This document shows, one piece after another, positions 17,726 through 40,085 of a stretch of 40,085 nucleotides of DNA. Location of the stretch: contig JANYAY010000064.1 of NCBI GenBank assembly GCA_025361065.1, forward strand, positions 1-40,085. Direction: 5' to 3'. This stretch comes from Deltaproteobacteria bacterium (GTDB lineage: Bacteria > Desulfobacterota > Syntrophia > Syntrophales > Smithellaceae). The notes below the pieces were generated by a model. The model searched no databases and was not told the origin of the DNA. It saw only the letters and a program-made list of their open reading frames with translations. The position numbers were made by a program, and so were the translations under genes. Each line of letters begins with the position of its first letter. Positions within the stretch are counted from its first letter, which is position 1.

Positions 17726-17786
17726 GAGTAACAGAGGCAATTCCCGGTTTTCTTTTTCTAATTTCGATCAAAATATCTGGAGCCTC

Positions 17787-18311: not shown

Positions 18312-18349
18312 ATCTTTCACCTTCCTATTAATGTGCTGTTTGCCGCTGC

Positions 18350-19717: not shown

Positions 19718-19803
19718 TCAATTATGGGTCCCGGCAATTAGATAATTCCTTCGTCCGTTACACTTTTATGTTCGCAAAATTACAATATAGAGGATTATTT
19801 CTT

Positions 19804-20556: not shown

Positions 20557-20560
20557 TGTA

Positions 20561-21793: not shown

Positions 21794-21803
21794 AGTACTA
21801 ATA

Positions 21804-22658: not shown

Positions 22659-22713
22659 TTATTGATTCAACTTTTCATTTCGTCCGGTAACTACCCATAA
22701 TACGGTATCGGAA

Positions 22714-23460
22714 TCATTTATTTTTGAAGACAACGGCTTGTCCCGTGGGCAGGACCAGCGGTATTACATCATGGCGTGAAAAATATTCATCAACAGCTTT
22801 CCTTGCACCGGGACATGTCGGAAACCCATAGTCGTCAAACACCATGAACCCACCGACAGATAATCGAGGGAAAATAAACTCACAACAATCGGCAACTGAC
22901 TGTCTTATATCTACATCCACGTGAGAGAAGGCTATTCGGGAGTGTTCCAATCCTCTAAATGTCTCGGGTATATAGCCCTGGTGGTATATGGCGATATCGC
23001 TGTGTTGAATATAGTTTTGAACTGTTGCCAGCGCTGTATCTGAGAAGTCGCCCTTACTGTGACAGTCAATAGCATGATCTGTTTGAGGCATTCCCTCAAA
23101 TGTGTCAAAGAGTCGAAGGAATCTGGCAGCCGAATAGTCATGGATGATCTGGGCCAGCATGGCGGCAGTTCCACCTTTGTAAACGCCACACTCCCAAATG
23201 TCACCATTTATAAACAGGCTTTGTCGGCAAAGTGCATAAAGAATCCAGCAGCGATCGCGCGAAACAATTGTCCTGTCCTTTGCCAGGTCATAGTATTTCC
23301 GGAACTCTCCGTAACCAAGCCATGGCGAAAACAGCGGGCGGTAATATTTATCATCTGGGATTTGTGAAGACCCAGGCTGCCTGGCATATCTCTGGATACG
23401 ATAGATGTCGACCCCAAATTGATTCAATATACTGCGTATCATCTTCTTGATACGTATCAC
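22714..23460 (-). CDS. TylF/MycF-family O-methyltransferase
   Basis: TylF (macrocin O-methyltransferase) family enzymes are Mg2+- and SAM-dependent sugar O-methyltransferases. The 248-residue protein begins at GTG 23460, supported by a strong AAGGGGGG ribosome site just upstream. Family motifs are DRCWILYALCRQSL, GDIWECGVYKGGTAAMLA (SAM site), LRLFDTFEGMPQTD, the metal-binding FSHVDVDIRQSVADCCEF and GGFMVFDDYGFPTCPGARKA. A second, different TylF-like gene lies at 29096-29869. The polymer is probably methylated at more than one position or on more than one sugar. Confidence 0.9.
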   Translation of the reverse strand: MIRIKKMIRSILNQFGVDIYRIQRYARQPGSSQIPDDKYYRPLFSPWLGYGEFRKYYDLAKDRTIVSRDRCWILYALCRQSLFINGDIWECGVYKGGTAAMLAQIIHDYSAARFLRLFDTFEGMPQTDHAIDCHSKGDFSDTALATVQNYIQHSDIAIYHQGYIPETFRGLEHSRIAFSHVDVDIRQSVADCCEFIFPRLSVGGFMVFDDYGFPTCPGARKAVDEYFSRHDVIPLVLPTGQAVVFKNK

Positions 23461-23553
23461 ATTCCCCCCTTATGAACTTCCCCTTTTTTTATATGTTGAT
23501 TATGCTGATGATTCTGAGCCCCGTTCGCTGTTGGTTGTGCAATCCTCATTTCT

Positions 23554-24750
23554 CTAATTGACAGATTTTTCGCAATTCGAGTTCAGCCGAATCAAGCTTT
23601 TTGAAAATAAACGCACAAGAATGAGAGGCAAGAGTAAAGAAAACCAAAAATCAATTCCGCGTATCACAGGAACGAATACAAAGGACACCGCTCCATATAG
23701 GACGACAAAGTATGTGGCACTAGAATAGATATTTCGCTTCCTTGTATTATCGTCAATGATGTATAATAACATTCCGACAAAATAAAAGGCGATAAAATAG
23801 AAATAGCCAAAGTCCTGGAATGCGTAAGAAGAAAAATACTGTGCAGGATTCCACTCCCATTCATAATTACTCTGAAAATCAGGCAAAGACAGATGAAAGA
23901 ATCTAAAAATAAAATACAAAGGTGCAAGGATCGTTGAAAAACCGTAAGTATATTGATCACACGTATCAATCATCAATTGAAAGTTAACTAACCCTGATTT
24001 AAAATATAACAAGGTGAAATCGATAATGCCTACATTTTCTAAACGTTTTATGGATAAATAATTTGCCAGCAATAATGCTAACGCAATAAATATCCAATAT
24101 CGAATTTTGTTAATGTAACCTTTTTTAATAACAAGAAAGATATTGGCCAGAAGAACCGTCATGATGGTTAAACGATCAAGAGAGAAAAATACTTTAATTA
24201 CTATTGCTACCAATGCTGTAATATTCAGATTCCAGAGTCTTCTCTTGTCAACCTCGCTGGGCATTATAAAATTTATAATTCCCAATGACATAAGATAAAT
24301 AGACAACGGGGCATATGAAAACATTTTGATAATACCCGACAGACCTTCTTCGTCTGACGGTAAAAGAAAGGCATCTCGGATACCGATTTCATAATCACTG
24401 CTTAATAATTTTGTCGCATATTCTGTCAAAGGAACAAATAAAACGACCTGTAAGATGGCTACTGCAGTTCCTATAATTATAATCAGGTATGAATAAACAT
24501 AAAATGTGTTAGTGAATGAATTATATTTATCTTCGTTCTGCCACTCACGATTATCCGGTAGGGAATAAAATAATTTTACTGTAAGAAAACCTACAGCCGA
24601 CCAAAAAACACCGATCATATGCATCCAGATAGCTTTATTCAAGTTAATAGCATCGGAGATCAAGGGGGTGTGATAAAAATACACAGGAACAAATATCAAT
24701 TGGGCGCAGAAAAAATAAAAATAGAGATTATTAAATTGCGCTATTATCAT
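23554..24750 (-). CDS. Candidate Wzy polysaccharide polymerase (polytopic membrane protein)
   Basis: Wzy joins flipped repeat units into polymer at the outer face of the inner membrane. This 398-residue protein is almost entirely hydrophobic, with about ten membrane helices and a longer polar loop containing FRFFHLSLPDFQSNYEWEW in the second half. Wzy sequences share little identity. The call rests on topology, length, absence of any other candidate, and position between two GT2 genes and the flippase. The DNA here is visibly more AT-rich than the gsp region, as is common for wzy. Translation is coupled to the upstream GT2 gene by a 4-bp ATGA overlap. Confidence 0.75.
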   Translation of the reverse strand: MIIAQFNNLYFYFFCAQLIFVPVYFYHTPLISDAINLNKAIWMHMIGVFWSAVGFLTVKLFYSLPDNREWQNEDKYNSFTNTFYVYSYLIIIIGTAVAILQVVLFVPLTEYATKLLSSDYEIGIRDAFLLPSDEEGLSGIIKMFSYAPLSIYLMSLGIINFIMPSEVDKRRLWNLNITALVAIVIKVFFSLDRLTIMTVLLANIFLVIKKGYINKIRYWIFIALALLLANYLSIKRLENVGIIDFTLLYFKSGLVNFQLMIDTCDQYTYGFSTILAPLYFIFRFFHLSLPDFQSNYEWEWNPAQYFSSYAFQDFGYFYFIAFYFVGMLLYIIDDNTRKRNIYSSATYFVVLYGAVSFVFVPVIRGIDFWFSLLLPLILVRLFSKSLIRLNSNCEKSVN

Positions 24751-25583
24751 CTCACAATTACTCCCGTGAGCAAGCCCAAAAGCTCTGATAAATAATAACG
24801 TGTTTTTCTTGGGACAGCGATCATGGTGTAGGGGATATAGAAGATTACTTTCAGTAAACGCAAAAAATATTTATAATACAATTTATGTTTGACACATAAA
24901 TGTGCAAACCCGCAACGATATGAAAAAACTCTTCTTCTTTCTGATGCCTCGGAATGATTAATGACCTTTTGCGGGTGATATATTTCGACTTCAGGTGTAT
25001 AGAAAATGATTATTCTTTTCTGAAGCATTCTTAATACAAGGTCATATGCTTCTTCAGCTCCATAAAATGTTCCAATGCCAAAGGATTCGTCAAATTGAAA
25101 TTTTGAAAAAATATCTTTTTTAATGAACATTGTAGCTTCAATGAACATTGTTTCATGTTGTTTTAATGACAGATAACCACTTTTCTTCGAAAATATGCCC
25201 ACAGAATCCGCCGATGTACGATCCACGCATTTGCCAAATAAAACTTCAGCCCCAGTGCTTTTCAGATATTCCATCGCTAGAGCCATGGTTTCTGGAAATA
25301 ATTCTGCATCATCATCCGGGAAAAACAGATATTGTCCATTGGCAAATTGCAGACCATAATTCCGGGCCCTTGCCGCACCGGTAAAACAAACTTTAATATG
25401 TTCAATTGGTAGAACATTATTAAATTTCCGGACAATCTCAGCCACTATCAATGTTCTATTCTGATCAATTATGATAATCTCATAATGTTTATATTGAGAA
25501 GATACAATTGAGGCCAGCAAAGCTTCGAGCTGTGTGGTTCGGCCTAATGTTGGTATGATGATGCTTATTAAATCATGCGGCAT
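24747..25583 (-). CDS. Glycosyltransferase family 2
   Basis: The 278-residue protein has a GT-A fold start (MPHDLISIIIPTLGRTTQLE), the block YKHYEIIIIDQNRT, the TGAARARNYGL acceptor-side element and the metal-binding FPDDDAELFP. The C-terminal region has a GAEEAYDLVLRM acidic motif and a short basic hydrophobic tail that may lie along the membrane (YFLRLLKVIFYIPYTMIAV). Donor and linkage cannot be told. It overlaps the wzy start by 4 bp and is separated by 111 bp from the preceding GT2 gene. That gap is AT-rich, with nothing I can identify. Confidence 0.88.
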   Translation of the reverse strand: MPHDLISIIIPTLGRTTQLEALLASIVSSQYKHYEIIIIDQNRTLIVAEIVRKFNNVLPIEHIKVCFTGAARARNYGLQFANGQYLFFPDDDAELFPETMALAMEYLKSTGAEVLFGKCVDRTSADSVGIFSKKSGYLSLKQHETMFIEATMFIKKDIFSKFQFDESFGIGTFYGAEEAYDLVLRMLQKRIIIFYTPEVEIYHPQKVINHSEASERRRVFSYRCGFAHLCVKHKLYYKYFLRLLKVIFYIPYTMIAVPRKTRYYLSELLGLLTGVIVR

Positions 25584-25694
25584 ATAGTCATAAATCGATA
25601 GGTTTAGCCGATATTTTATATGGTTTTGCAGACGGTAAATTTGGCAATAATTTATTACTCGGCCAACTTTTTGCGCAGATGTTTTTAATTTCCA

Positions 25695-26792
25695 CTAATT
25701 TAAATACGAAGAATATTTTTCGACGTTTGGAATTGAAGATTTACCTAGGTATAGATTTAATCTGCGATATAGATTGATTATATGCACTAATATAGTCTGC
25801 AACCAGGAAGCATGTTCGCAGGCTTTAGCCGTCAGGTAGATCACTGATGCTAAAAATTTTGCACTAAAATGGTGATAAAGAACACTTGCAGCTTTATATG
25901 TATCTTCGTATTTCTTATATTTTATAGATTGCATCCCGCATAAAAATACTTTCATTTTTAATTCCTTCATTGAATACAAACGAAATTTCTCTCTTATAGG
26001 CATTGGTATACGATTATCATCAGTCAAATTATGTATCATTTTTAGCCAGCCCGGCCAAACGAGACCGAGACCAGCAGTGGAACTAGCAGATGAAGAATGC
26101 ATTACGTATATTCCTCCGGGGACATTTGATAATACAAAGGGAAAATGTGCTGCAATACGCTGCATATAATCATAATCGCAAGGTCCCCCAACTGCTTCAT
26201 CAAAAAATCCTATATGCTCAATCACTATACTGCGAAACAGAACTCCTGTCATAGTTGGCGGATGACGCCCGTCTTCAAACATGGCCAACAACCCTGCGGG
26301 GGGACGATAATAATCGTTTTTCCAGGTCGAATTGGCTGCAATTCCAAAAGAGCCATCAGGCTTCATGCATATAACTTCTGTCGCGGAGAAGGCAGCATCA
26401 GGATATTTATTCAAGCCCTTTAATGCTATTTCATAGAAATCAGGCAATAAAATGTCATCATCCGAAAGAACAGAAAAAAATGGAGTTCGAACCTCTTTCA
26501 CTCCAAAATTGAAATTTCCTATTGCTCCAATGTTTTCCGAATGGCAGTAGTATGTTACGCGTGAATCTTTCCGAGCCAGCTCTGCCACAATATCAGCCGT
26601 TTCATCACCTGAAGCATTGTCATAGATGCATACCCGTAAGTGGGGATAAGTCTGGTTTAAAACACTTTTAATTGCACGTTCCAATAACTTCGGACGACAA
26701 TATGTCGGTATGACGGTTGTAATGGCAGCAGGCATCTTCATGTTCATATTTTCAGAGGGTATTTGTCCATTCGGTGTTATCATATCGTTCAT
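25695..26792 (-). CDS. Glycosyltransferase family 2
   Basis: The 365-residue protein has a 20-residue N-terminal extension, then AAITTVIPTYCRPKLLERAI, VLNQTYPHLRVCIYDNASGDET and the DXD-type motif FFSVLSDDDILLPDF. A downstream block (FFDEAVGGPCDYDYMQRIA) carries the likely catalytic acidic residue. The C-terminal 100 residues are helical and basic, suggesting peripheral membrane binding. The start overlaps the flippase stop by 4 bp (ATGA), giving translational coupling within the cluster. Sugar donor and acceptor are not deducible. Confidence 0.88.
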   Translation of the reverse strand: MNDMITPNGQIPSENMNMKMPAAITTVIPTYCRPKLLERAIKSVLNQTYPHLRVCIYDNASGDETADIVAELARKDSRVTYYCHSENIGAIGNFNFGVKEVRTPFFSVLSDDDILLPDFYEIALKGLNKYPDAAFSATEVICMKPDGSFGIAANSTWKNDYYRPPAGLLAMFEDGRHPPTMTGVLFRSIVIEHIGFFDEAVGGPCDYDYMQRIAAHFPFVLSNVPGGIYVMHSSSASSTAGLGLVWPGWLKMIHNLTDDNRIPMPIREKFRLYSMKELKMKVFLCGMQSIKYKKYEDTYKAASVLYHHFSAKFLASVIYLTAKACEHASWLQTILVHIINLYRRLNLYLGKSSIPNVEKYSSYLN

Positions 26793-28306
26793 TTAGCCTC
26801 TTCTTCATCTGGAGATTTGACACCTCTATTAAACAACAGCAGTCTCGTTGCCTGCGTGGCGATAGCTGTAACGCCGAGAGTTGAAATTGAGATGAATATT
26901 AAGTAAAAGGCTACCATGAATTGAGATGATTGGTTTCTAATAAACAATTTTCCCAACCCTGCAATTATGATGGCTGTTAAAAGTGGCAAACAAACATCCT
27001 GCCAGTACCAACGCCATTTCTCAGATGATAGTAACCGTCTGTGCATGAAATGGATGGCAATCAATAGGCAACAACCGTTCAAGATCACCCAAAGTATTGC
27101 AGCGCCTAATGCGCCATATTGCCAGATCATATATACAATCATCGGTACCATCATAATTACGGCTATCAAATTGGTATAAAAAGCAAGTTTTGTCCAGCCG
27201 TTGGCTAATTGTAATGCATAGGGAATATACATTAACCCGTTAAGAGCGGTACCGCATATTAGAAAGCTAACCAGCAGGTATGTCCTTTCAGCTATAACAG
27301 TATTTTGTGTCCATAGTTGAAGAATTTCTTTAGAAAATATTGCAACAACAATAGTAACTGGGAAAATAAGAACGGACATGACCTGGCAACTTTTGTGATA
27401 AAGTCGCTTCAATCCATCTTGATCGGAGATGGCAACCAGTTGGGTGAATCGGGGATAAATTGCAAAATAAACTGGTCCGATCAACCGGTAGATGGTCATG
27501 GCGACGGCGCTTGCCAAAGTATAATAACCGAACATTTCCAAAGTAAGCATCTTACTTAAAATGATCTTGTCCAGCTGCGTAAGAATTAATGCCAGTATTG
27601 ATATTCCACTTATGCCTGCGGCAAACCTCCATATGCCTGTGAAGATTTGTTTCTGGAACGATGACTTCTTTTCGGTATGCGGAAGCCTGCTCCAGAGAAA
27701 GAATGTCAAAATTGAAGTGTTAATTATGCTGATAAGCAGTTGCCATAAAAAGAAAGCCTGGATCGTTGGGGAAATCAACCAGAGGATAAGTACGGCTCCC
27801 ACACTGCGTAAAGTACTGATAACTATATTGATGATATTCAACACGACCTGTTGTTGGAGCCCCATGAGTCCACCGGAGTAAAAAGAAGCCGGCCATTGGA
27901 GAGCAGCCGTTAAACCCATGATTAGAACTGCTTCCTCGATGGTATGAGGTGATAGCCCGCTCGGATTAATCCAGTTATGCGTAATAAAGGGAGATATTGC
28001 CAAAATAGCCATTCCAATTAAGATGGCCACGAACCAACAAATTATTTCCAGTGAACGGACGAGATCCCTCATTTCCTGTGCCTTGCCCGGCAATGCTGAG
28101 AGACGCGCCATTTCACGGGTCAATGTTGCCGTTAGCCCCAAGTCCAAAAGTACCAGGATAGCCTGCAGTGTTGTAAAAATACCAATTAGCCCGTAAGATG
28201 CAATTCCTATAAATTTTATATATAGTGGTATAAACAGCAGAGCTATACCGGCTTGCCAGAAATTTCCGGCAAAGTTGGCAGCTATGTTTTTTCTAAGGAG
28301 GCTCAT
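26789..28306 (-). CDS. Wzx-type lipid-linked oligosaccharide flippase
   Basis: Wzx moves the undecaprenyl-diphosphate-linked repeat unit across the inner membrane. The 505-residue protein has about 12 to 14 membrane helices and the MATE/RfbX-type start FAGNFWQAGIALLFIPLYIKFIG. Further family features are LTATLTREMARLSALPGK in the first intracellular loop, QLDKIILSKMLTLEMFGYYTLA and RLIGPVYFAIYPRFTQL. It is the only flippase candidate here. The region is co-directional with neighbours and overlaps the next GT2 gene by 4 bp. Gene order and membrane topology make this call firm. Confidence 0.92.
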   Translation of the reverse strand: MSLLRKNIAANFAGNFWQAGIALLFIPLYIKFIGIASYGLIGIFTTLQAILVLLDLGLTATLTREMARLSALPGKAQEMRDLVRSLEIICWFVAILIGMAILAISPFITHNWINPSGLSPHTIEEAVLIMGLTAALQWPASFYSGGLMGLQQQVVLNIINIVISTLRSVGAVLILWLISPTIQAFFLWQLLISIINTSILTFFLWSRLPHTEKKSSFQKQIFTGIWRFAAGISGISILALILTQLDKIILSKMLTLEMFGYYTLASAVAMTIYRLIGPVYFAIYPRFTQLVAISDQDGLKRLYHKSCQVMSVLIFPVTIVVAIFSKEILQLWTQNTVIAERTYLLVSFLICGTALNGLMYIPYALQLANGWTKLAFYTNLIAVIMMVPMIVYMIWQYGALGAAILWVILNGCCLLIAIHFMHRRLLSSEKWRWYWQDVCLPLLTAIIIAGLGKLFIRNQSSQFMVAFYLIFISISTLGVTAIATQATRLLLFNRGVKSPDEEEAK

Positions 28307-28386
28307 ATACTTTTCAATAAGAGATACTAAGATGACTGGAAATTATGTCGAACATTCCTGTATAAGTTCAGTTTTTTCTATGCAGT

Positions 28387-29049
28387 TCAATAATCAGACC
28401 CGGGACGAATAAAGTATTCGTCAGCATAGTAGCGCTTCATTTCCTTAAAAACGGGGCGGCCGCTTTTCCCGGAAAACACATAACAATTGCCGGGAGTATC
28501 CGCATTTATCAGGGCTACACCGGGTGTGAGCACAGTATTCTCACGAACAAGACATTTCCCGATGACCATTGATGAGGGAAACATTACGACACCATTTTCA
28601 AGTATGGTGTGCTCAACACCCTGTCTTCCCACTGTACAACCTTGATGGAATACGCAGTAATCACCGTAGCCGCCCATGGCAAACACCATACCTACCGTAT
28701 GACCAATCGCAAAATAGTGCGGCATTTCAATTTTGTAAAATAAATCTATTCCATTCAGTGCCTTATTCAACAAAAATAAACGAGTCGCGGCATCGTGACC
28801 TCCAGAATCTTTCCAGATGCAATTGGCCAAAAAATAAAGAAATGTCGCATATTGACCGGAAACGAGGTAGTCAAACCCTTTATCACGCCAAGCTAAAATA
28901 GAGCCTATGCATTGTTCTGTGCGTTGCAGGGCATTCGGAATATTTTTCACGACGACATCTTTTATGTTGAAGCGATCAGGAAAATAGGCAGCTATTTGTC
29001 GGACAACATACTCAGCCAGGAATTCACTCTTCGTATCCATGAACTGCAT
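28387..29049 (-). CDS. CysE-like left-handed beta-helix O-acyltransferase
   Basis: The 220-residue protein has an N-terminal helical half and a C-terminal hexapeptide-repeat half. The latter has FAIGHTVGMVFAMGGYGDYC, VFHQGCTVGRQG, NGVVMFPSSMVIGKC and NTVLTPGVAL. This arrangement resembles serine acetyltransferase, with His117 and His135 at the likely catalytic positions. In this setting it more likely transfers an acetyl group to a sugar hydroxyl than to serine. A ribosome site AAGGA lies about 10 nt before the ATG at 29049. Exact substrate unknown. Confidence 0.78.
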   Translation of the reverse strand: MQFMDTKSEFLAEYVVRQIAAYFPDRFNIKDVVVKNIPNALQRTEQCIGSILAWRDKGFDYLVSGQYATFLYFLANCIWKDSGGHDAATRLFLLNKALNGIDLFYKIEMPHYFAIGHTVGMVFAMGGYGDYCVFHQGCTVGRQGVEHTILENGVVMFPSSMVIGKCLVRENTVLTPGVALINADTPGNCYVFSGKSGRPVFKEMKRYYADEYFIRPGSDY

Positions 29050-29095
29050 CTAAATTATATCCTTTTTGATGACCGACAAAAATTGGAAATAAAAA

Positions 29096-29869
29096 TCAAT
29101 CAAGCACTGCGAAAGAAAGTGCTGAAGTAAAGGGGAATCTCTGTATTCGGAGGTTATTTAAACCTACGGTTTCCAAAACTGCAATTGTTTCACCTGGCCA
29201 ACTGGCCTGGTTTAATTCATCAAATGCGAGAATTGCACCTTTGGGCATCCTCGGTAAGAAAGTTTCGATGGCAACTTTTGTCGGTTCATATAAGTCAAAA
29301 TCCAAATACAACATAGCAACTACCAGATGAGGATTCTTACTTAAATATTCCGGTATAGTTTTCACGGCATCGCCAACTACGAGTTCAGCGCGAGGAATAT
29401 GACCTATGGTTCGATTTAAATCATATAGTCTTATTGCCTCTTGCAGATCAGAAAAAGCTTCTGTAGCCAATCCTCCGGGAACGGCAAACTCAAGATTGTC
29501 ACCTTTATCCTTGGCGTTTATATCGACAAAGCCGGTAAAGGTATCAAAACCTATCACGCGGCGGATATGATTCACCGGTTCATAAATGGCGCTTAACTGT
29601 GCCCAGGTCATCAGTCCTCCCCCGAGAAAAATGCCGCATTCTATTATATGTCCATGCACATTCAAAAGGCGTTCAAAAATAGCATTCTTAGCCAAAAACG
29701 CGGAAAGGGCCTGTCGAGGAACGTATTTAGAAAAATTGCGCAATTTGTCCATATTAGTGCCTAAACTTCTGGGGAAATAGGCGCCCATCCCCATTGCATA
29801 TCCTTGATCATTTTCAGTTTGAGTACGGATATCATGCATCGAAAATATTTCTTCTTTCTTATCCGTCAT
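29096..29869 (-). CDS. TylF/CmcI-like SAM-dependent methyltransferase
   Basis: The 257-residue protein shows the TylF-like pattern GHIIECGIFLGGGLMTWAQL (SAM site), VIGFDTFTGF, LVVGDAVKTIPEYL, the metal-binding LYLDFDLYEPTKVAIETFL and GAILAFDELNQASWPGETIA. The N-terminal DQGYAMGMGAYFPR segment is unlike the other TylF homologue in this cluster, so they are paralogues with separate roles rather than a recent duplication. AGGGGGG a few bases before ATG 29869 is a strong ribosome site. Substrate is presumably a nucleotide sugar or a lipid-linked glycan. Confidence 0.85.
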   Translation of the reverse strand: MTDKKEEIFSMHDIRTQTENDQGYAMGMGAYFPRSLGTNMDKLRNFSKYVPRQALSAFLAKNAIFERLLNVHGHIIECGIFLGGGLMTWAQLSAIYEPVNHIRRVIGFDTFTGFVDINAKDKGDNLEFAVPGGLATEAFSDLQEAIRLYDLNRTIGHIPRAELVVGDAVKTIPEYLSKNPHLVVAMLYLDFDLYEPTKVAIETFLPRMPKGAILAFDELNQASWPGETIAVLETVGLNNLRIQRFPFTSALSFAVLD

Positions 29870-29928
29870 TTGTGCCCCCTATTTTTAGTTTTATTATTGA
29901 TGTCAATGCATCATATTATTCAATCTCG

Positions 29929-30594
29929 CTATAATATATTCCCACTTGGATATACAGGGTCGGATAAACGAATCACTCTGGCAGGATTGCCGACCACTGT
30001 TGCATAGTCCGGGACATCTTTAGTAACAACTGCACCGGCTCCGATAGTGGCCCATTTACCGATTTTGATGCGGGGAAGCAGAGTTGCATTTGTTCCAATA
30101 AAACATCCGTCTCCTATTTCAACACACCCCGAAATACTGCAAGCATGCGCAATAAATACGGAGTGACCAATTTTAGATTCATGGGCGATCAATGCCCCCA
30201 TATGTATGCTGCAATTATTGCCGATTACAGCATCTGCTTGAATAATGACGGAATCTTGAAAGTAATTACCGATTCCAATCTGCGTCATGGATAAATTAAT
30301 GGATGGATGGATAAAATTTGTAAATCGACAGCCTTTTTTTGCCATGTAGACGGATGTCTCGTAACGCATTTTCGTGCTTCCGGTAATCAGGTTCACAAAA
30401 TAAATGTCTTCCTTGGAAAATTTTTCCAGAATTTCAAACCCGCCGAATATTGGGTATCCACAGAACAGAGTACCTTTCTTACCGGGATCGTTATCAATAA
30501 AACCTATAACGTTGAAATTTGACGCAGCATCGCTTACTGCCCTTATCATTCGGCCAGTCTCAGGGTTGGCAGCACCTAGAAATAATATATTCAT
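29929..30594 (-). CDS. NeuD/PglD-type sugar N- or O-acyltransferase
   Basis: Family members acetylate 4-amino groups of nucleotide sugars (PglD) or hydroxyls of sialic acid (NeuD). Of 221 residues, a Rossmann-like N-terminal domain (MNILFLGAANPETG, VIGFIDNDPGKKGT) precedes a left-handed beta-helix with hexapeptide repeats. Conserved His residues are seen in FIHPS (H96), LIAHES (H138) and FIAHACSISG (H150). H138 matches the catalytic base position of PglD. The hairpin VVTKDVPDYATVVGNPARVI closes the helix. It follows the DegT-type aminotransferase gene by 39 bp, so acylation of the amine made by that enzyme is the simplest proposal. Confidence 0.88.
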   Translation of the reverse strand: MNILFLGAANPETGRMIRAVSDAASNFNVIGFIDNDPGKKGTLFCGYPIFGGFEILEKFSKEDIYFVNLITGSTKMRYETSVYMAKKGCRFTNFIHPSINLSMTQIGIGNYFQDSVIIQADAVIGNNCSIHMGALIAHESKIGHSVFIAHACSISGCVEIGDGCFIGTNATLLPRIKIGKWATIGAGAVVTKDVPDYATVVGNPARVIRLSDPVYPSGNIL

Positions 30595-30633
30595 TAATTC
30601 TGCTCCATCAGAGAGGCAGTTAAATAAGTTGTT

Positions 30634-31746
30634 TTAATGCTGGGTAAAAATATAATCCTTCACTACTTCTATTACCCTATCAATATCTTCATTCGTCAGG
30701 TCATGATAACTGGGCAGGTTTATAGCTTTTGCATAAATATGATAGCTGACTGAATTCTCATACTTGTTGGTGAATATTGGCAACGAACTAAGTGGATAAA
30801 AGAAGACACGTCCATCGATGTCTCTTTGCTTGAATTTATGAAGCAGAAGCTCTCTGTTAAAATCAAAAGGTCTGTCAAACACTAGCGTCGGCATCCAATA
30901 ACCATTTACAGTATCTTCTGCCTCCGGGTTCATGGTTATACCTTCAATATTTGCAAATGATTTTTGATATTGCTCAAATATATACCTTTTTTTTGCGACA
31001 AGTTCATCAATCCGTTCCATTTGCGCACATCCAAGGGCAGCTTGCAGGTTCGACATCTTATATTTAAAACCAATCATATCAGGCCAGAATTGTTTTACCT
31101 GCCCGCGAGCCCGCCCGTGGTTACTCAGGGTACATACCCTTTCATAGAGAGCGTGATCGTTTGTTACGAACATTCCTCCTTCGCCCGTTGTTACCGTCTT
31201 CGTGCCGTGAAAGGAGAAGACGCCGAAGGCGCCCATGGAGCCGGCACGCCGTCCGTGGTATATCGAACCTATGGCTTCGGCGGCATCTTCAATGACCGGA
31301 ATGCCATGACGGCGCCCTAAGGCTTGCAGAGCATCCATTTCGCAAAGATTGCCGTAAAGGTGAACGGCGATGATCGCTTTTGTATTCGGTGTAATTGCAG
31401 CTTCTGCTTTTTCAGGATCAATACACCAGGAATCGGGCAATACATCTATGAAAACTGGTTTTGCGCCAAGATAGCTAATTGGTGCTGCAGAGGCGATCCA
31501 ATTTATATCTGCCAGTATTACCTCATCTCCCGGTTTAACTCCGATCGCGGCCAACCCCATGTGCATTGCCCCTGTACAACTCGAAGTGGCGATTGCATAC
31601 TTAACGCCTAGATGGTTCTTGAATAAATCTTCTAACCGATAAATATAATCATAGCATTTCTCGCCCCAGCCATTCGCAGCCGCGTCTGCTATATAGTTGA
31701 TCTCCAGATTGGTGATTGATGGTTTTGTATAATAGATCTTAGTCAT
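30634..31746 (-). CDS. DegT/DnrJ/EryC1/StrS-family sugar aminotransferase
   Basis: These PLP enzymes transfer an amino group from glutamate to a keto-sugar nucleotide, usually at C4 or C3. The 370-residue protein has the family features AIATSSCTGAMHMGLAAIG, EVILADINWIASAAPI, VIEDAAEAIGSIYHGRRAG (Asp154 for the PLP pyridine) and FSFHGTKTVTTGEGGMFVTND with the Schiff-base Lys183. SNHGRARG and the MSNLQAALGCAQMERID segment are also intact. Because the Lys is present it should be a transaminase, not an RfbH-type 3-dehydratase, where His replaces Lys. The overall style is like perosamine synthase-type 4-aminotransferases. Confidence 0.93.
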   Translation of the reverse strand: MTKIYYTKPSITNLEINYIADAAANGWGEKCYDYIYRLEDLFKNHLGVKYAIATSSCTGAMHMGLAAIGVKPGDEVILADINWIASAAPISYLGAKPVFIDVLPDSWCIDPEKAEAAITPNTKAIIAVHLYGNLCEMDALQALGRRHGIPVIEDAAEAIGSIYHGRRAGSMGAFGVFSFHGTKTVTTGEGGMFVTNDHALYERVCTLSNHGRARGQVKQFWPDMIGFKYKMSNLQAALGCAQMERIDELVAKKRYIFEQYQKSFANIEGITMNPEAEDTVNGYWMPTLVFDRPFDFNRELLLHKFKQRDIDGRVFFYPLSSLPIFTNKYENSVSYHIYAKAINLPSYHDLTNEDIDRVIEVVKDYIFTQH

Positions 31747-31761
31747 TGTGCACCGGAAATT

Positions 31762-32988
31762 CTAAAAAACCCGGATAGAGGGAATTGGTACAACAAACTT
31801 TGCTCCCCATTCGGAAATATAATCAAGCTGAGTCATAATCTCTTCCTTAATATTCCATGGAAGAATCAGGACATAGTCCGGCTTGTATCTTTTCATCTCT
31901 TCTTCACTCACAACCGGGATATGACTGCCAGGAAGATATTTCCCTTGTTTATGAGGTGACATATCTACCACGAAAGCGACAAGATCTTCTCCAATGCCAC
32001 AAAAGTTAAAAAGGGTATTTCCTTTTGCTGCTGCCCCATAAGCCACCACTTTCCGCCCTTTTTCTTTCTGCTCGATGAGAAACTTAAGCAGTCCGTACTT
32101 CACCTGCGCCGCCTTGCTTTGGAAGTTCTTATAATAAGAAATCATGTGAAGGCCGGCAGATCTCTCCTTTTTCATTAGAGAGGATACATTATCTGAGACA
32201 CTTTTTGTCTGATCCTCCATGTGCTTGGCAAATATGCGAATAGATCCTCCATGTGTTGGAAGCTCTTCAACATCGAACAAATCCAGTCCGTGCGTCAGGA
32301 ATATAGATCTCACTGTCAGAAATGAAAGGTATGAATAGTGTTCATGATAAATGGTATCAAACTGTCCATCAGCAATAAGGTGCATTAAATGAGGAAACTC
32401 CATTGTAACAACACCGGCTGGCTTAAGTACAATTTTTAGTCCCGCCACAAAATCATTCAAATTAGGCACGTGAGCAAGGACATTGTTGCCGATCAGTAAA
32501 TCAGCTTTTTTATTCTGCCTGGCCAAACGATTGGCGATTCCCTTGCCAAAAAAATCTACAATGGTTTCTATGCCTTTTTTTCTGGCCTCTGTAGCTGTTG
32601 CCACTGCCGGTTCGATACCTAGAGACGGGATCCCCTGTTCCTGGAAATATTGCAATAAGTATCCATCATTTGAAGCAATTTCAATGATCAGGCTATTTTG
32701 GTCATAGCCAAATTTTTCGATCATCATCATAGCATATTTTTTTGCATGTGTAAGCCATGTCGAGGAAAAAGAAGAGAAGTAAACATAACCAGAATCAAAA
32801 ATATCCATCGATTTCTTGTACTCGTCAATCTGCACAAGAAAACAGGAATCACAGACGAAAATCTTCAGTGGATAATAAACTTCCGGTTCGTTTAGCTGTT
32901 CTCTAGTAAGGAACGAATTGGATGGAGGGGCACTGACCAAGTCAAGAAATTCAGAAGTTAACTTTTTACTGCAGAAACGGCAGTTCAT
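31762..32988 (-). CDS. Sugar C-methyltransferase (NovU/TylCIII/TcaB9 type)
   Basis: These SAM enzymes add a methyl group to a carbon (C3 or C5) next to a keto group of a 6-deoxyhexulose nucleotide. Of 408 residues, the N-terminal zinc-binding domain has CxxC pairs Cys3/Cys6 and Cys46/Cys49. The SAM domain (IIEIASNDGYLLQYFQ, then LGIEPA and LLIGNNVLAHVPNLNDF) contains the catalytic-site segment FDTIYHEHYSYLS. The C-terminal Methyltransf_14 domain begins near VVAYGAAAKGNTLFN. The start overlaps the epimerase stop by 4 bp (ATGA). Position after rfbF-rfbG-epimerase points to a CDP-4-keto-6-deoxyhexose substrate. Confidence 0.92.
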   Translation of the reverse strand: MNCRFCSKKLTSEFLDLVSAPPSNSFLTREQLNEPEVYYPLKIFVCDSCFLVQIDEYKKSMDIFDSGYVYFSSFSSTWLTHAKKYAMMMIEKFGYDQNSLIIEIASNDGYLLQYFQEQGIPSLGIEPAVATATEARKKGIETIVDFFGKGIANRLARQNKKADLLIGNNVLAHVPNLNDFVAGLKIVLKPAGVVTMEFPHLMHLIADGQFDTIYHEHYSYLSFLTVRSIFLTHGLDLFDVEELPTHGGSIRIFAKHMEDQTKSVSDNVSSLMKKERSAGLHMISYYKNFQSKAAQVKYGLLKFLIEQKEKGRKVVAYGAAAKGNTLFNFCGIGEDLVAFVVDMSPHKQGKYLPGSHIPVVSEEEMKRYKPDYVLILPWNIKEEIMTQLDYISEWGAKFVVPIPSIRVF

Positions 32989-33536
32989 ATTTTAATCCCT
33001 TGGAAGCTATTGCCGATAAACGAGAAATTTCGATCCCTCGATGATACAATTCCGGCAGGCAGAGGCCAACGAATAGCAAAAGCGGGATCGTCATATTTTA
33101 ATCCACGCTCATATTGGGGCTCGTAAAATGCCGAATGATGATAAATCAACTCTGCATTATCGGTGAGCGTCTGGAAGCCATGAGCAAATCCCCCCGGCAT
33201 GAAAACCATGCGCATATTATCTTTCGATAATTCCACACCGTGCCAATGCCTGAAGGTCGGGGAACTAAGCCGGATATCTACCATGACGTCAAAGACCGCT
33301 CCTTGAACACACCGTATAATCTTTATTTCAGAGGCCGGCGAGCATTGATAGTGTAGGCCCCTGATTGTAGCTTTTTGCCTGGTTAAAGAATGATTGATTT
33401 GAACGATCTGCTTATCAAAACCGATTTTGGCAAACTCGTTTTGGCAAAAGGTGCGTGCAAAAAACCCCCGCTCATCGCGAAACGGTTCGAGTTCAATTAC
33501 ATAGGCACCGGCTAGTGACGTTTCGAGAAATTTCAT
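32985..33536 (-). CDS. RmlC-like sugar 3- and/or 5-epimerase
   Basis: The 183-residue cupin resembles dTDP-4-dehydrorhamnose 3,5-epimerase. It has ERGFFARTFCQNEF, the catalytic His62 in TIRGLHYQ, VFDVMVDIRLSSPTFRHWHG, VFMPGGFAHGFQTL, the Tyr132 position in LIYHHSAFYEP, and GLKYDDPAFAIRWP. In dTDP-rhamnose loci it would sit with rmlA, rmlB and rmlD. Here its partners are CDP-glucose enzymes and a C-methyltransferase, so it probably epimerises a CDP-linked 4-keto sugar and the name rmlC would mislead. It is coupled by 4-bp overlaps at both ends. Confidence 0.9.
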   Translation of the reverse strand: MKFLETSLAGAYVIELEPFRDERGFFARTFCQNEFAKIGFDKQIVQINHSLTRQKATIRGLHYQCSPASEIKIIRCVQGAVFDVMVDIRLSSPTFRHWHGVELSKDNMRMVFMPGGFAHGFQTLTDNAELIYHHSAFYEPQYERGLKYDDPAFAIRWPLPAGIVSSRDRNFSFIGNSFQGIKI

Positions 33537-34624
33537 TCTTCCGCCCAGAAAATCTGTTTGTTTTTTGCATCTGAGATATAGCCATGAAGGTCCTCAAAAC
33601 TTCGGACATCTGCGGATTCATGAAATGCCCTGTACCATTGGGTTGTCTTTGCAATGGCTGTTTTCACATCCCAGACAGGTGACCACTGCAATTTTGTCCG
33701 TGCCTTAGAACAGTCCAGCCTAAGCAGGCCCGCCTCATTCGGTTGATCGGGGGACTTTTGTATTTCATAGTCTATTTTCGGCCAGACCGCCTTTACCTGG
33801 TCTACAATTTCAACTACAGTAACATTGCCGTCTTCAGACGGTCCGAAGTTCCAGGCGTCGGCAAATTCTTTCCGGCCTTCCAGTAGTTTTTGACCAAGAA
33901 GCAGATACCCGCTCAACGGCTCGAGAACATGCTGCCATGGACGGGTGGCCCGGGGGTTGCGGATATTTACTGTTTCACTATTGCTTACAGCACGCATCAT
34001 ATCCGGGATTAGCCGGTCTTGCGCCCAATCTCCGCCCCCGATTACGTTTCCGGCGCGCACGCTCGCCAGAAGAGTGTTATGGGTTCTACCGTAGTCTGCG
34101 GGATTGAAGAAAGAATTGCGCCAGCATGAAGTGATAAGCTCGGCGCACCCTTTGGATGCACTGTAAGGATCATAACCACCAATGGAATCGTTTTCCCGAT
34201 ATCCCCATATCCATTCCTTATTGTCATAACATTTATCGCTGGTCACGATGACGATAGCACGAACTGACCTGCATTCTCTTGCTGCTTCCAGAACATTGAT
34301 AGTACCCATTAAATTAGTGGAAAATGTTGCAACCGGATCTTTATAAGAAAGTCTGACAATGGGCTGTGCCGCAAGGTGAAAGACAATCTCTGGTTGCTGC
34401 TCATTGAATAACTGCTTTACTTTTTCTGCATCACGAACATCACCGATCGTGGAAACGATATTGAGATCAAGAAGATCAAAGTGGTTGGGTTCTGTTGGTG
34501 GCAGAAGTGAATAGCCACTGATTTTCGAGCCCAGTTGCACAAGCCAGAAGGCAAGCCAGGAACCCTTGAAACCGGTATGTCCTGTCACTAGCGCTCTGGC
34601 ATTACAATATGTATTATTGAACAT
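33533..34624 (-). CDS. rfbG: CDP-glucose 4,6-dehydratase
   Basis: The enzyme converts CDP-D-glucose to CDP-4-keto-6-deoxy-D-glucose using bound NAD. The 363-residue short-chain dehydrogenase-like protein has the nucleotide-binding motif VTGHTGFKGSWLAFWL and the RfbG-typical TSDKCYDNKEWIWGYRE. The YSASK motif follows (catalytic Tyr154 and Lys158), then SVRAGNVIGGGDWAQDRLIPD and RPWQHVLEPLSGYL. GHTGFKGSW together with TSDKCYDN distinguishes it from the dTDP-glucose enzyme RmlB. It lies 6 bp behind rfbF and overlaps the epimerase gene by 4 bp. Confidence 0.96.
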   Translation of the reverse strand: MFNNTYCNARALVTGHTGFKGSWLAFWLVQLGSKISGYSLLPPTEPNHFDLLDLNIVSTIGDVRDAEKVKQLFNEQQPEIVFHLAAQPIVRLSYKDPVATFSTNLMGTINVLEAARECRSVRAIVIVTSDKCYDNKEWIWGYRENDSIGGYDPYSASKGCAELITSCWRNSFFNPADYGRTHNTLLASVRAGNVIGGGDWAQDRLIPDMMRAVSNSETVNIRNPRATRPWQHVLEPLSGYLLLGQKLLEGRKEFADAWNFGPSEDGNVTVVEIVDQVKAVWPKIDYEIQKSPDQPNEAGLLRLDCSKARTKLQWSPVWDVKTAIAKTTQWYRAFHESADVRSFEDLHGYISDAKNKQIFWAEE

Positions 34625-34630
34625 GCTGCA

Positions 34631-35428
34631 TTACCAGATTTTCCATTTTGCCTGACCGGAATTCCATAAATTATTGAGATACTCCACATCCCGCAATGTG
34701 TCCATACATGCCCAGAATCCCCGGTGCTTGTAAACCATCAGCTGACCATTTTTGGCTATCTGTTCCAAAGGGCCGATTTCGAGGTCGCAGGAATCATCAA
34801 TAGTAAGGTAATCGAAAATAGATTTATGAAACACAAAAAAACCGCCGTTGACGAGGCCATCTCCATTCTGCGGTTTCTCTGCAAAGGATTTAACGAGATC
34901 ACCGTCAATTTTTAATTCACCGAAACGTGAAGCGGGATTGATCCCCGTAACTGTTACCAGTTTGCCGTGAGCATGATGAAATGTCAAAAGAGCATCGATG
35001 TCGATATCAGAGATGCCATCGCCATAGGTCATCATGAATATATCGCCGGAAATATATTTTTCCAGTTTTTTTAAACGTCCCCCTTTAAGTGTCTTTTCTC
35101 CCGTATTAGCTAAAGTTATACTCCAACCGGCTTCATCATGAGACTTATGAATGCATATATTTTCCGGCTGCCCCAAGGCAATGGTCACGTCATTGTTCAT
35201 GAGTTCATAATGGCAAAAATAATTTTTGATCATATCGCCGCGATACCCCAAAGCCAGAGCAAAATCACGAAAGCCGAACCTCGAATAATATTTCATAATA
35301 TGCCAGAGGATCGGGCGCTCGCCGATATTGACCATCGGCTTAGGTCGAAATTCTGTTTCTTCACGCATGCGTGTTCCCGTACCGCCACATAGAATAACAA
35401 CCATGATATTTTTATTTTGATCAATCAT
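34631..35428 (-). CDS. rfbF: Glucose-1-phosphate cytidylyltransferase
   Basis: It makes CDP-glucose from CTP and glucose-1-phosphate. The 265-residue protein has the family start VILCGGTGTRMREETEFRPKPM and IGERPILWHIMKYYSRFG. LALGYRGDMIKNYF, FMMTYGDGISDIDIDALL (metal-binding Asp), GELKIDGDLVKSFAEKP, VNGGFFVF and HRGFWACMDTLRD follow. MREETEFRPKPM is diagnostic for RfbF. GAGG lies 9 nt before the ATG at 35428. It is the first gene of the polysaccharide cluster. The upstream gap (35429-35518) should contain the operon promoter; only a weak candidate (TTGATT at 35484-35479, TATACA at 35459-35454, 19-bp spacer) is visible. Confidence 0.96.
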   Translation of the reverse strand: MIDQNKNIMVVILCGGTGTRMREETEFRPKPMVNIGERPILWHIMKYYSRFGFRDFALALGYRGDMIKNYFCHYELMNNDVTIALGQPENICIHKSHDEAGWSITLANTGEKTLKGGRLKKLEKYISGDIFMMTYGDGISDIDIDALLTFHHAHGKLVTVTGINPASRFGELKIDGDLVKSFAEKPQNGDGLVNGGFFVFHKSIFDYLTIDDSCDLEIGPLEQIAKNGQLMVYKHRGFWACMDTLRDVEYLNNLWNSGQAKWKIW

Positions 35429-35612: not shown

Positions 35613-38600
35613 TTAAAAACCAGCCAACATGACTGTAGGGTCAGCAGTAGTAAGCCGAGTCCAGGCATTGGCTTCCCATTTCCAAACTCCGGCATTGCCT
35701 GCCATACCATCTACATATAACGCAGAACCCAACGCAACCATATTTGTCGGATTGATACCGTTGAGCTGAGTCCAAGCACTGCCGTCATATTTCCAGACGC
35801 CCGCATTGCCTGCCAAGCCAGCTACATATAACGCAGAACCCGACGCAACCATATTTGCCGGATTGACACCATTTAGCCGAGACCAGGCACTACCGTCATA
35901 TTTCCAGACGCCCGCATTGCCTGCCAAGCCACTCGCATACAATACTGAACCCGAGGCTATCATGCTTGTCGGGTTAAGAGTATTGAGCCGAGTCCAGGCA
36001 CTGCCGTCATATTTCCAAACACCGGCGTTACCTGCCATGCCACTTGCATACAATACTGCGCCCGAGGCCACCATGCTTGTCGGGTCGATAGTATTGAGTT
36101 TAGTCCAGACACTACCGTCATATTTCCAGATGCCGGCATTTCCTGCCAAACCACTCGCATACAATACTGAACCCGAGGCCACCATGCTTGTCGGGTTAAC
36201 AGCATTAAGTTGAATCCAGGAATTACCACCCCATTTGAAGATACCAGGCGCTCCCGTTATACCAAACACATACAAGAGGGAACCCGAAGCCACCATATTT
36301 GTCGGATTGTTTGCAGTAATTTTCGTCAAAGCACCCATGTCCCATTGCGAGATACCGGCACCCGTATTGGCTAAATACAGCAGTTGATCAGTATTCAACA
36401 CCAATGGCCGCATCATGTCGTCTTCTTCATGTCCCAGGATATGGCAATGCCATGTATACTCATGACCGAAGTTAGTCACGGCATTGACGACGGTGGTCGG
36501 AGTCCCCGTCAAGGGGTCGAAACTCGGGAATGTAGATCCCACGGGCATTGCAGGGTTCAGAGGTCGAATGCTGTTGGGAACCGAGAAGGGGTAAGTAGGT
36601 ACCTTGGCTCGCATGGCTACAATGATATCTTCCAGCGGGTTCATCCGGACGGTGTCCTTCCAGCCCAGTTCATTGGGGTCGGTAGTGCGGATAGCCCCGT
36701 CCCAGCCGACACGGTTAATTACCTGCACATCGAATAAATGGAAATGAATGCCGTGGGTGTCTACGCCGTTGTGGGTGATCTTCCACAACTGAGTTTCACC
36801 GGCTTTGAAGGTCTCAGTGGGAGGATCAATGAATCCCAGCGGAACAGTAGTTTGAATATTAGCACCTGTAAACGGCAGTTCAACTCCCAATGTTGCGTTC
36901 ATCCTCCCTTCAGGATCAAATAACTCCTGGATGGTTTTCGGCTTCAGCGGCATCGTTACCGGTGCTGCAGCGCCGACAGGTGTAAATGTCAGGAAATTGG
37001 CTGAGATTGTCGAATACGTCGCGGTAGCTGCATTCCCTCCAGAGGCAACCAGATACTCCGGCTCCGGTATAACAAGTTTATCCTGAGTCAAAGCAAAGGT
37101 CGTCGGCAGGGTCGTGTTTAATGTGCTTACCAATGCCGGCGGATAGTCATCAACAGGTCCAGGTACGCCGGAATCAGTTCCTGATACCTGGAATTGCAAA
37201 ATAGTTCTGGTGTTGGGGCCATAACCGGGCATAGTTGAGGGAGCGCCGCCCTGATAATTTGCCCCGCCGGTTGCCGAATAATCGGGGTTGCCCGTATAAA
37301 AGTCATAGCGCGGGTCACCTGCCGGCACTGGCGCCGGGGAGTCATTATAGAGAATAATTTTCTTCCCTTGAAATTTTGAGAAATCGACGATGATGTCCGC
37401 CCGTTCCGCCGGGGCCAGGAAAAGTGTTTTTTCCAGAACATTTAATACAACGATATTTCTTTTGTTTTGTTCAAAACCGACAGGGGTATTGGGGAGGACC
37501 ACCGGTGCCGGCAAAATCCCGCCTTCCGTACCGATCTGGATCATGGCCGGACCACGCAAAGCCGGATCGGGCACGCCCGGGAGTCTGCTGTCCAATATAT
37601 CCGGGATCATACCCGGTGTTTGCGCCTGCCAGGAGGCTGGAAATGCAGCTGCTCCGGGAACCGCCGGCACCATTTTTACTTCCGTACTGCCTCCGACGAT
37701 GACGGTAGGTAAACCGGTATAACCGGCGCCGCCATTTGTCACAGTGATGGCCGTTACAGCACCGCCGGTAACAGTTGCCGTCGCCCAGGCGCCATATCCT
37801 CCGCCACCTGAAATGTGTACCATGGGGGGAACTGTTGAACTGCAACCGGCCCCTCCGCTACTAACAGCGATGCTGGCGATAGTGCCGGCGGCAGCCCCTG
37901 TCCCTAATGTTGCGGTGGCCGTAGCAGGGGTCGTGCAGCTGTCAGCCTGATACAATTGAAGATTTAACATCCGGTCATTAGTGGCGTTGAGGATTCTCAG
38001 CCTGTACAGGGCAGGCGCAACTGAAATGTAGGGATATGCCGTGCCGTTCACAAGAGGAGTATCCATGAAAGCCTCGGGTACGTGAGAGACTGTGGGCGGA
38101 TAAGGCGATGTTACGGGGAATACCGGCCAGAACCAGGGACCATAGTCCCAGCGTCCCAGAGGGTTTGCCCCTGTGATGGAAGTGGGATCCTGGTTTGGTT
38201 GATAAACATGGGGAAACCAGAGATTACCGCCAGTGGGAGGTGTAGCTGCTCCCCAGGTCAGGGGAGAAACCCAAAGAGGATCAGTTGTCGCGGTGTAACG
38301 TGAGACACCTGTTTGAACACCGGCAGGCGGAGCGACTGGGAATGCTGCATCTACGGAGGCATCATAAACAAAAGTCTTGTCTTGAATGACCATTGGAATA
38401 AGGCGTGCCAAATCCGCGCTGGAGATCGCCCCGGTAGTAGGATTAGTCACAATCGTTCCGGGCACTCCTGCGGCAAGCAATGCGCTTTCTTCTGTCGGAT
38501 CAACCAACAGATAGCCCGCGGCCTCACCTGCATAAACATTAACACCGGTTATCCCTAAAGCATGATCATGATAGAACAGCAATCTGCCAGACTGCTGATT

Positions 38601-39449
38601 GGGCCAATAAAAGGTTGCCACACCGGCAGGTGTTGTTGTCGCACCGGGCGTAGCACAAGTCAGTTGGCCGGAGCAGGCTGTAATGATTGTGCCAGCTGCA
38701 TTATACCACATGTCGGGAACATTATGCTGACTGGCGCCCTTAACAAAAGGTGTCACTTCCCCAGCCGGAGTGATCCACTGGTGAGCCGTCCCGTCACTAA
38801 TCCACGGAGGAAGACCGCCATGGAGATGGATAGTAGCCCGGTTTTCCGTATAGCTGGCGCATGTTGAAGCCGGAGCCGTTGGGTCACAGGCAGCACCGGC
38901 AGCTGTCAGCGGACCAAGACCTGCGCCCATGATTGTTTTGTCCACGGGCACAAAGAGATTGCCACCAGCCGCGGTCAACGGGAGTGTGTTGGTGAATTTG
39001 ATGCGCACCGGCCTGTTTTTTGTGGCCAGGATCAGAGGTCCCAAATAGTGGACAGTCGCCGGTACCACACTATTTGTGGTCCCAGCTGCGTCTGTCCCAT
39101 TATTAGTCTGCACATAACCCCGCAGTTTAGTCCCGACCGCGGGTAGATCCAAATGCATCCGCTCTTGATACTCAACCAGAGAGATTTCGTAATAATCGGA
39201 TCCCGGGAAAGTTAACTTATCCGGCGTAGCCAGAGGTATCTGCTGAGGCACAGGAAGGTTGTTTCCTGTGTTAACACCCGGTAGAGTATTGATAAACTTC
39301 CTCAGTGGCGGGCTGTAAGCAAAATTTGGTAAGGCCAAATTGACGTTTGGATTGAGCGTAGGCGCAGCGTGGCTTTGCTCAATATCCCAGGCAAAGATTG
39401 TCAATACCAGGAACATTGGTATCATCATAAATAATTTGCGTTTGTACAT
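35613..39449 (-). CDS. Exported CotA-like multicopper oxidase with an inserted Gly-rich module and C-terminal propeller-like repeats
   Basis: Multicopper oxidases couple one-electron oxidation of a substrate to four-electron reduction of O2. From ATG 39449 (AGGAG 8 nt upstream; an upstream frame to 39509 was rejected) the protein has 1278 residues, about twice the usual length. A Sec signal peptide ends near SHAA (29), with no twin-arginine motif. All four copper-binding blocks are intact: HLHGG (H208, H210), YHDH (H294, H296), HGIHFH (H899, H902, H904) and [12 protein letters not shown] (H1001 to M1012, with Cys1002 and axial Met). The HLHGG and HDH style is that of CotA/bilirubin oxidase-like enzymes. 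A Gly-rich beta module is inserted at about 505-590. Residues 1022-1278 are seven repeats of about 37 residues. The gene has its own promoter element and terminator. Substrate unknown; Mn(II), phenolics and bilins are possible for this family. Confidence 0.93.
35616..36386 (-). repeat. Seven tandem 37-residue (111-bp) repeats at the C-terminus of the oxidase
   Basis: Repeats begin at residues 1022, 1058, 1095, 1132, 1169, 1206 and 1243 of the oxidase. Each has the pattern [20 protein letters not shown], then [14 protein letters not shown]: four short beta strands per unit. Repeats 2 to 6 are exactly 37 residues. Units 3 to 6 are nearly identical and share codons, which suggests recent duplication; the outer units 1, 2 and 7 have diverged. 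Seven four-stranded units fit a seven-bladed beta-propeller. The structure is an inference from repeat count and strand pattern. Confidence 0.85.
37680..37937 (-). other. Gly-rich GGxGY beta module inserted in the middle cupredoxin domain
   Basis: Residues about 505-590 of the oxidase contain two related units, [20 protein letters not shown] and [20 protein letters not shown]. Each is followed by a V-x-I-x-GG-type strand (VHISGGGG and VIVGGS). I associate this kind of repeat with large surface and phage tail-type proteins rather than with multicopper oxidases. It interrupts the second cupredoxin-like domain between [10 protein letters not shown] and VKMVPAVPG. Confidence 0.7.
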
Positions 39450-39878: not shown

Positions 39879-40085
39879 TCACATCTGCTTCTCTTCTTTC
39901 GCCGGATGTGAAGATGGAAGGGCCAGGAAAGAATCAATCCAATCTCTGAGAATTGTCAGTTTGATGCGGAAGTTCTCATGGTCATCTTTCTTCCATTGTT
40001 GAGCATCACAATTATTGAGGCTGGAGACTGTCTTATTAACCATGCCATATAGAGCTTCAAAATTAGCACCTTTGGTTACTTCACC
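39879..40085 (-). CDS. C-terminal end of an unknown protein, start outside the window
   Basis: The minus-strand frame is open from the last base of the window down to TGA at 39881-39879, giving 68 residues. They form a soluble, charged, helical-looking tail: FEALYGMVNKTVSSLNNC, then WKKDDHENFRIKLTILRDWI, and a Pro/Lys/Glu-rich end. Amino-acid composition is protein-like and there is no internal stop, in contrast to the stop-rich DNA beside it. I cannot assign a family. It is transcribed in the same direction as the oxidase gene, which starts 429 bp further on. Confidence 0.55.
   Translation of the reverse strand, partial: GEVTKGANFEALYGMVNKTVSSLNNCDAQQWKKDDHENFRIKLTILRDWIDSFLALPSSHPAKEEKQM

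Follow-up and report, generated by a model that had tools for sequence, protein, structure and literature searches.

A CotA-type multicopper oxidase with a predicted seven-bladed propeller tail, encoded in a type II secretion and exopolysaccharide gene island of a Smithellaceae bacterium

In a stretch of 40,085 nucleotides from contig JANYAY010000064.1 (GenBank assembly GCA_025361065.1, a bacterium of the Smithellaceae; the whole of that stretch is termed ‘the window’ below), a single gene on the reverse strand was found to encode a multicopper oxidase (MCO) whose copper-binding core is followed by an array of seven repeats that is predicted to form a propeller and that extends to the last residue of the protein. 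The analyses described here indicated that the gene product is an atypical form of an enzyme already known, in which the usual tail has been exchanged for a propeller, and not the representative of a new class. The new element is its context: an island of type II secretion system (T2SS) genes that also contains a MofB-like FKBP isomerase gene and an exopolysaccharide cluster, with gspE, gspF and gspH located upstream of the oxidase. The source assembly consists of 186 contigs (97% complete, with 3.9% contamination), and the synteny of gspE with that of other members of the class argues for the contig being part of the lineage.

The oxidase core and its C-terminal repeats

The four copper motifs of the protein are complete, and the ten histidine ligands and the cysteine within them were invariant across 36 aligned sequences (the window MCO and 35 relatives); together with the axial methionine, these are the residues that a first-pass annotation, made from the DNA alone, had read as those of a three-domain MCO. 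A search of PDB sequences identified CotA (1gsk, E = 9.7e-32) as the closest solved relative, and an AlphaFold2 model of residues 99-1298 matched CotA with a Z score of 23.9 over 447 aligned positions at 36% identity, the full model containing stretches of low predicted local-distance score (pLDDT) that lie partly within inserts. The core was accordingly classed, from its sequence and modelled fold, as a predicted three-domain enzyme of the CotA type. CotA laccase and bacterial bilirubin oxidase share its copper ligands and domain arrangement, whereas the window MCO is approximately twice their length, contains inserts, is predicted to be secreted, and continues into a propeller after the HCH motif.

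The reading frame of the gene (35613-39509) corresponds to 1298 residues when translated from its first in-frame ATG, at 39509, and the residue numbers of the copper ligands and inserts follow that version of the protein. The ATG at 39449 is nonetheless the better start, because a Shine-Dalgarno-like GAGAGGAG sits directly upstream of it and a predicted Sec signal peptide follows, and the earlier choice of 39449 was thereby borne out. The possibility that a frame shift or an assembly artefact had produced the fusion of oxidase and propeller was rejected, as the same fusion is complete in two other genomes (G053 and G126). The GC content of the gene (0.52) exceeds that of its neighbours; horizontal gain judged from composition was not convincing, since its third-position GC (0.51) sits at the upper end of the range found across the window (0.32-0.51).

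The periodicity of the tail is pronounced, with self-identity of 63, 56 and 54% at lags of 37, 74 and 111 residues, whereas no other lag between 20 and 119 exceeds 14%. A hidden Markov model (HMM) of the repeat unit located seven copies, the first of which is 35 residues long, lacks its first strand and opens with an LYxxG strand; the protein closes with a TxMxAGF strand, and the register of the repeats suggests that this last strand could complete the first blade and so close the ring. When the 263-residue tail was folded alone with AlphaFold2, the model contained 28 strands (seven times four), with a mean pLDDT of 82.7 and a predicted template-modelling score of 0.82. The Foldseek matches of this model were propellers, those of the kelch type among them (best E = 2e-8), and VIA-align placed the seven-bladed PHL and PLL lectins of Photorhabdus first (Z 21.1, root-mean-square deviation 2.5, 18% identity), with 238 residues, almost all of the tail, aligned. 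The prediction for the tail is therefore a closed ring in which each of seven blades has four strands; a propeller is in this way supported as a prediction, and the seven repeats of about 37 residues and four strands that had been noted at the end of the protein were confirmed by the HMM, by their periodicity and by the predicted fold. The PHL and PLL lectins, as the nearest structural matches, also consist of seven four-stranded, tryptophan-containing blades, but the tail displays no detectable sequence relation to them, has shorter blades (37 residues) and is fused to an enzyme. Two Pfam matches within the tail were dismissed as chance matches to the repeats: Pepdidase_M14_N (24.8 bits against a cut-off of 23.2), the single match of the tail to pass a cut-off, spans 28 residues, no stretch of which passes by itself, and Rax2 falls below its cut-off.

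Relatives of the core and exchange of the tail

Bacterial and archaeal genomes, when scanned, yielded 79 loci, from many phyla, that encode relatives of the MCO core, and those in the 36-sequence alignment have identities of 52-73% across the aligned core. In 73 of the 74 relatives with a readable end, at least 100 residues (median about 430) follow the HCHxxxH motif, and the proposal of a candidate new extracellular oxidase class was for that reason left unsupported. The accompanying statement that known architectures end after the HCH motif is correct for CotA and bilirubin oxidase, but does not extend to the OmpB/MofA-type family. Pfam detected fn3 in 36 of 74 tails (that of the window and those of 73 relatives) and Ig-like domains in many others. 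No fn3 was detected by Pfam in the tail of the window MCO; because only 36 of the 74 tails have one, its lack excludes ‘an OmpB’ and not membership of the wider family.

The mofABC arrangement described for Leptothrix includes MofB, an isomerase of the Mip/FKBP kind, and the cytochrome MofC (PMC5566968, PMC8218464). Two loci from Comamonadaceae (L072 and L081) encode an MCO, then an FKBP, and then a protein of about 600 residues with a single CxxCH; in three others (L040, L024 and L018) the FKBP and single-CxxCH protein genes stand before the MCO, and 26 of the 79 loci have FKBP genes close to the MCO. It is on full-length homology to the oxidases of these mofABC-like loci that the placement of the window core in the OmpB/MofA-type family rests. 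MofA of Leptothrix discophora is a large MCO associated with the FKBP/Mip-type MofB, and the mofABC-like relatives from Comamonadaceae are homologous to the window core, which has a different tail.

OmpB of Geobacter is described in PMC5566968 (citing Mehta 2006) as a T2SS-secreted MCO that has an Fn3 domain and is needed for the reduction of Fe(III) oxide. Its tail is thought to bind minerals, and an MCO with an attachment tail had thus already been described (PMC5566968). OmpB of Geobacter sulfurreducens (GSU1394) resembles the window MCO in being a large secreted or outer-membrane protein whose C-terminal extension is regarded as a means of surface attachment; judged from its description, OmpB has a tail of the fibronectin type III kind, with reported EXXE motifs, whereas the window MCO has a propeller and a single EXXE. 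The type of tail is therefore new, whereas C-terminal attachment modules on MCOs are, as a principle, already known. Within the literature library that was searched, no paper dealt with a fusion of MCO and propeller, and no test was found of what the C-terminal extensions of OmpB/MofA-type MCOs do.

Ten of 155 genomes of the window's class carry the repeats. Six MCOs in five genomes end in the propeller (the window genome, G150, which is locus L006, G053, G126 with two, and G068), and those of G150 and G068 are cut by contig ends, the latter after 29 tail residues. The same repeats end adhesin-like proteins, a protein that has one CxxCH (a possible c-type haem) and a putative metallopeptidase (here with some further residues beyond the array), and propeller-type repeats also end a small secreted protein (L130, G450) from a different family of the phylum. 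The two tailed MCOs of G126 (L107:563-9229), which flank two FKBP isomerase genes, are 34% identical in their cores and 56% identical in their tails. A tree of the cores, built by a quick method, grouped the window MCO with L006, but placed two Geobacteraceae MCOs with a different tail (L007 and L008) as sister to that of the window, with L006 outside (98-99% by the Shimodaira-Hasegawa-like approximate likelihood-ratio test, SH-aLRT), and grouped the G053 and G126a sequences together, far from the window. From the core and tail identities in G126, and from the disagreement of the core tree with the distribution of tails, it follows that the tails of these MCOs were exchanged on more than one occasion; in this bacterial class the propeller is an interchangeable module at the C-terminus.

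The repeats were not found in viruses, phages or plasmids, except for one weak match to a plasmid ‘ELWxxDGT repeat’ protein, and the MCO was absent from three genomes of the same genus that were searched. Several MCOs from Geobacteraceae and Nitrospirota (L007, L008, L020, L033 and L010) were observed to have tails of another repeat (NGxWYLDxxGNGxWD...GDIPVxGDW). At a further locus (L129, in G484), likewise in the other family of the phylum, propeller-type repeats adjoin a papain-like protease frame, itself only partly resolved, that starts the same repeat.

The secretion and polysaccharide island

The positions of the gene, its motifs and its neighbours are collected in Table 1. The exopolysaccharide cluster, which ends beside the MCO, contains genes for an SLBB export protein, Wzz, YjbH, a sugar transferase, a flippase and nucleotide-sugar enzymes. 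The FKBP of the window has 57% identity to one member of the FKBP pair encoded between the tailed MCOs of G126, and 50-62% identity to many FKBPs encoded beside MCOs of other phyla.

Table 1. Features of the window and of the adjoining part of the contig
Feature	Position	Strand	Basis
Propeller-tailed MCO, 1278 residues from ATG at 39449	35613..39449	-	Open reading frame and translation
Predicted Sec signal peptide, MYKRKLFMM...SHA/APT	39366..39449	-	Sequence read directly
Copper motif 1, H228-x-H230	38820..38828	-	Sequence; invariant in 36-sequence alignment
Copper motif 2, H314-x-H316	38562..38570	-	Sequence; invariant in 36-sequence alignment
Gly-rich insert with two short repeats, second cupredoxin domain (residues ~526-606)	37692..37934	-	Sequence
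Copper motif 3, H919-xx-H922-x-H924	36738..36755	-	Sequence; invariant in 36-sequence alignment
Copper motif 4, H1021-C1022-H1023-xxx-H1027-xxxx-M1032 (axial Met)	36414..36449	-	Sequence
Predicted seven-bladed propeller, seven units of 35-37 residues	35616..36389	-	HMM units, periodicity, 28 strands in AlphaFold2 model, structural matches
Propeller units, in order	36279-36383, 36168-36278, 36057-36167, 35946-36056, 35835-35945, 35724-35834, 35616-35723	-	HMM
gspG, major pseudopilin	507..953	+	Pfam T2SSG 1.2e-39
gspD, secretin	974..3031	+	Pfam Secretin 5.3e-48, gspD_N0
gspM, gspL-like, gspK and minor pseudopilin genes	3880..8167	-	Pfam T2SSM_b, PilN/PilM_2, T2SSK, N_methyl
MofB-like peptidyl-prolyl isomerase of the FKBP/Mip type, candidate aid to folding	9049..9756	-	Pfam FKBP_N, FKBP_C
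Exopolysaccharide/O-antigen cluster, 24 kb	11375..35428	-	Pfam
ParB-like gene, cut by window end	39879..40085	-	Open reading frames and Pfam
gspE, gspF, gspH and LuxR-type regulator, just upstream of MCO, beyond window	contig 41982-46264		Open reading frames and Pfam

An orthologous gspE (75-80% identical) adjoins an OmpB-type MCO, or lies within about 4.3 kb of one, in five genomes (that of the window, G150, G053, G126 and G089), and polysaccharide genes are found on the other side of the MCO in the window and in G053, with a flippase-like gene in G126. In two genomes of the same family (G055 and G067) and one of the same genus (G002), gspD (55-65% identical) directly precedes gspE with no MCO between them, which indicates that the window cluster lies between two parts of a T2SS gene set.

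Further observations were made around these genes. A near-complete T2SS gene set in the window genome (window 507-9756 together with L113:3983-7197) is split by the 24-kb exopolysaccharide cluster and the MCO, and a small cupredoxin gene (COX2-like; L113:8365-8748) is located near the gspE operon. In G089 (L168) the MCO lies ~4.3 kb from gspE, its end falls near 13.1-13.6 kb, and it has a different, tryptophan-containing repeat tail (LLWVHTSGQANLWKLDATDNLV...). A reading of the G068 locus as ‘empty’ was dropped, as a tailed MCO cut by a contig end is present there.

Proposed role of the propeller-tailed oxidase

These observations are best accommodated, with a probability that we place at roughly 0.57, by a secreted OmpB/MofA-type MCO that would be exported by the T2SS and that its propeller would retain in polysaccharide or at a surface. 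The signal peptide suggests that the protein would cross the inner membrane by the Sec pathway, after which it would fold in the periplasm, perhaps with the help of the MofB-like FKBP of the island, and the conserved gene order points to its export by the T2SS encoded around it. Its type 1 copper would then oxidise a small or metal substrate, with electrons passing to the trinuclear copper site, and the propeller, which replaces the Fn3 or Ig tails of relatives, would probably anchor the enzyme either in exopolysaccharide that the cell itself makes by means of the neighbouring cluster or on the surface of a glycan or mineral. Sugar-binding lectins have a seven-bladed, tryptophan-containing propeller fold of this kind (PMC6943638), so that a binding or placing role for the tail is reasonable; to that extent the idea of a propeller that places a CotA-type oxidase on a polymer, mineral or cell surface has stood, and the new class that was attached to it has not. 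It is a tentative and rather doubtful extension that the T2SS, the exopolysaccharide cluster and the lectin-tailed MCO may work together, and that the product would be a matrix-anchored extracellular redox enzyme of a presumed syntrophic anaerobe.

Several observations weigh against this assignment of a secreted and anchored oxidase. The tail matched no solved lectin or other PDB protein by sequence, even when a profile of ten tails was used, and a lectin-like role with sugar binding is for that reason suggested by the predicted fold only; propellers, moreover, bind many things. Relative to mofABC, the FKBP gene is 26 kb distant from the MCO, and a MofC-type cytochrome query, in a search that had no positive control, found none. 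The linkage of MCO and gspE is not universal, given that the two are about 24 kb apart in G068 and that no gspE was present within the stretches examined around the MCOs of G103 and G116. Finally, the host is a presumed anaerobe in whose genome no COX1 was detected, which makes O2 uncertain as the electron acceptor of the MCO; a cytochrome bd oxidase is present, and the host may possibly encounter occasional oxygen.

The propeller might instead be mainly a stabilising or sorting module for the T2SS of this lineage, capping domain 3 and offering a recognition surface for export. Such a role would agree with the very short linker between the MCO and the propeller, with the presence of propellers on MCOs that belong to distinct lineages but lie next to the same gspE, and with the occurrence of the module on unrelated secreted proteins, nearly always at the C-terminus and with a conserved last strand. 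It is nevertheless unlikely, because the OmpB-type MCO of G089 has a different tail despite its proximity to an orthologous gspE, relatives in other phyla have Fn3 or Ig tails, and the module is confined to so few genomes of the class, although searches with gspE gave matches in all eight of the genomes to which they were applied. Direct binding of a metal oxide or redox partner in place of a glycan, in the manner of the mineral docking proposed for the Fn3 domain of OmpB, must be regarded as quite improbable: there is only one EXXE motif in the whole MCO, the tail appears by eye to be rich in tryptophan, tyrosine, glycine and serine rather than in acidic residues, and its best fold matches are lectins. 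Least probable by far is an ordinary copper-detoxifying MCO, in the role of CueO or CotA, with a neutral tail. A CotA-like core would suit that function, but a second MCO of the same genome (contig C160; L114:159-2339), which is shorter and tail-less, has an apparent Tat signal and lies near an efflux-type membrane-fusion gene, fits it better than does the large, Sec-type window MCO within its T2SS and polysaccharide island.

The interpretation of the propeller as an anchor for a secreted oxidase is of broader interest, as OmpB/MofA-type MCOs have been connected with the cycling of iron and manganese outside the cell. A compact propeller in place of the usual extension, which could be expressed alone, renders the anchoring hypothesis directly testable, and such a test is further assisted by the location of the gene among those of its probable secretion system and next to polysaccharide genes. 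The presence of OmpB/MofA-type MCOs in presumed anaerobes of the Syntrophales type likewise raises the question of their electron acceptor.

Two minor features of the core were also recorded. The Gly-rich insert of the second cupredoxin domain, which was unmentioned in the first-pass annotation, is absent from the near relative L006, and a GGxGY motif was present in 32 of the 77 MCO frames scanned. At the axial position of the type 1 copper (Cys+10), 53 of 74 relatives have methionine and the other 21 phenylalanine, a natural substitution from which a higher redox potential would be expected in CotA-type enzymes.
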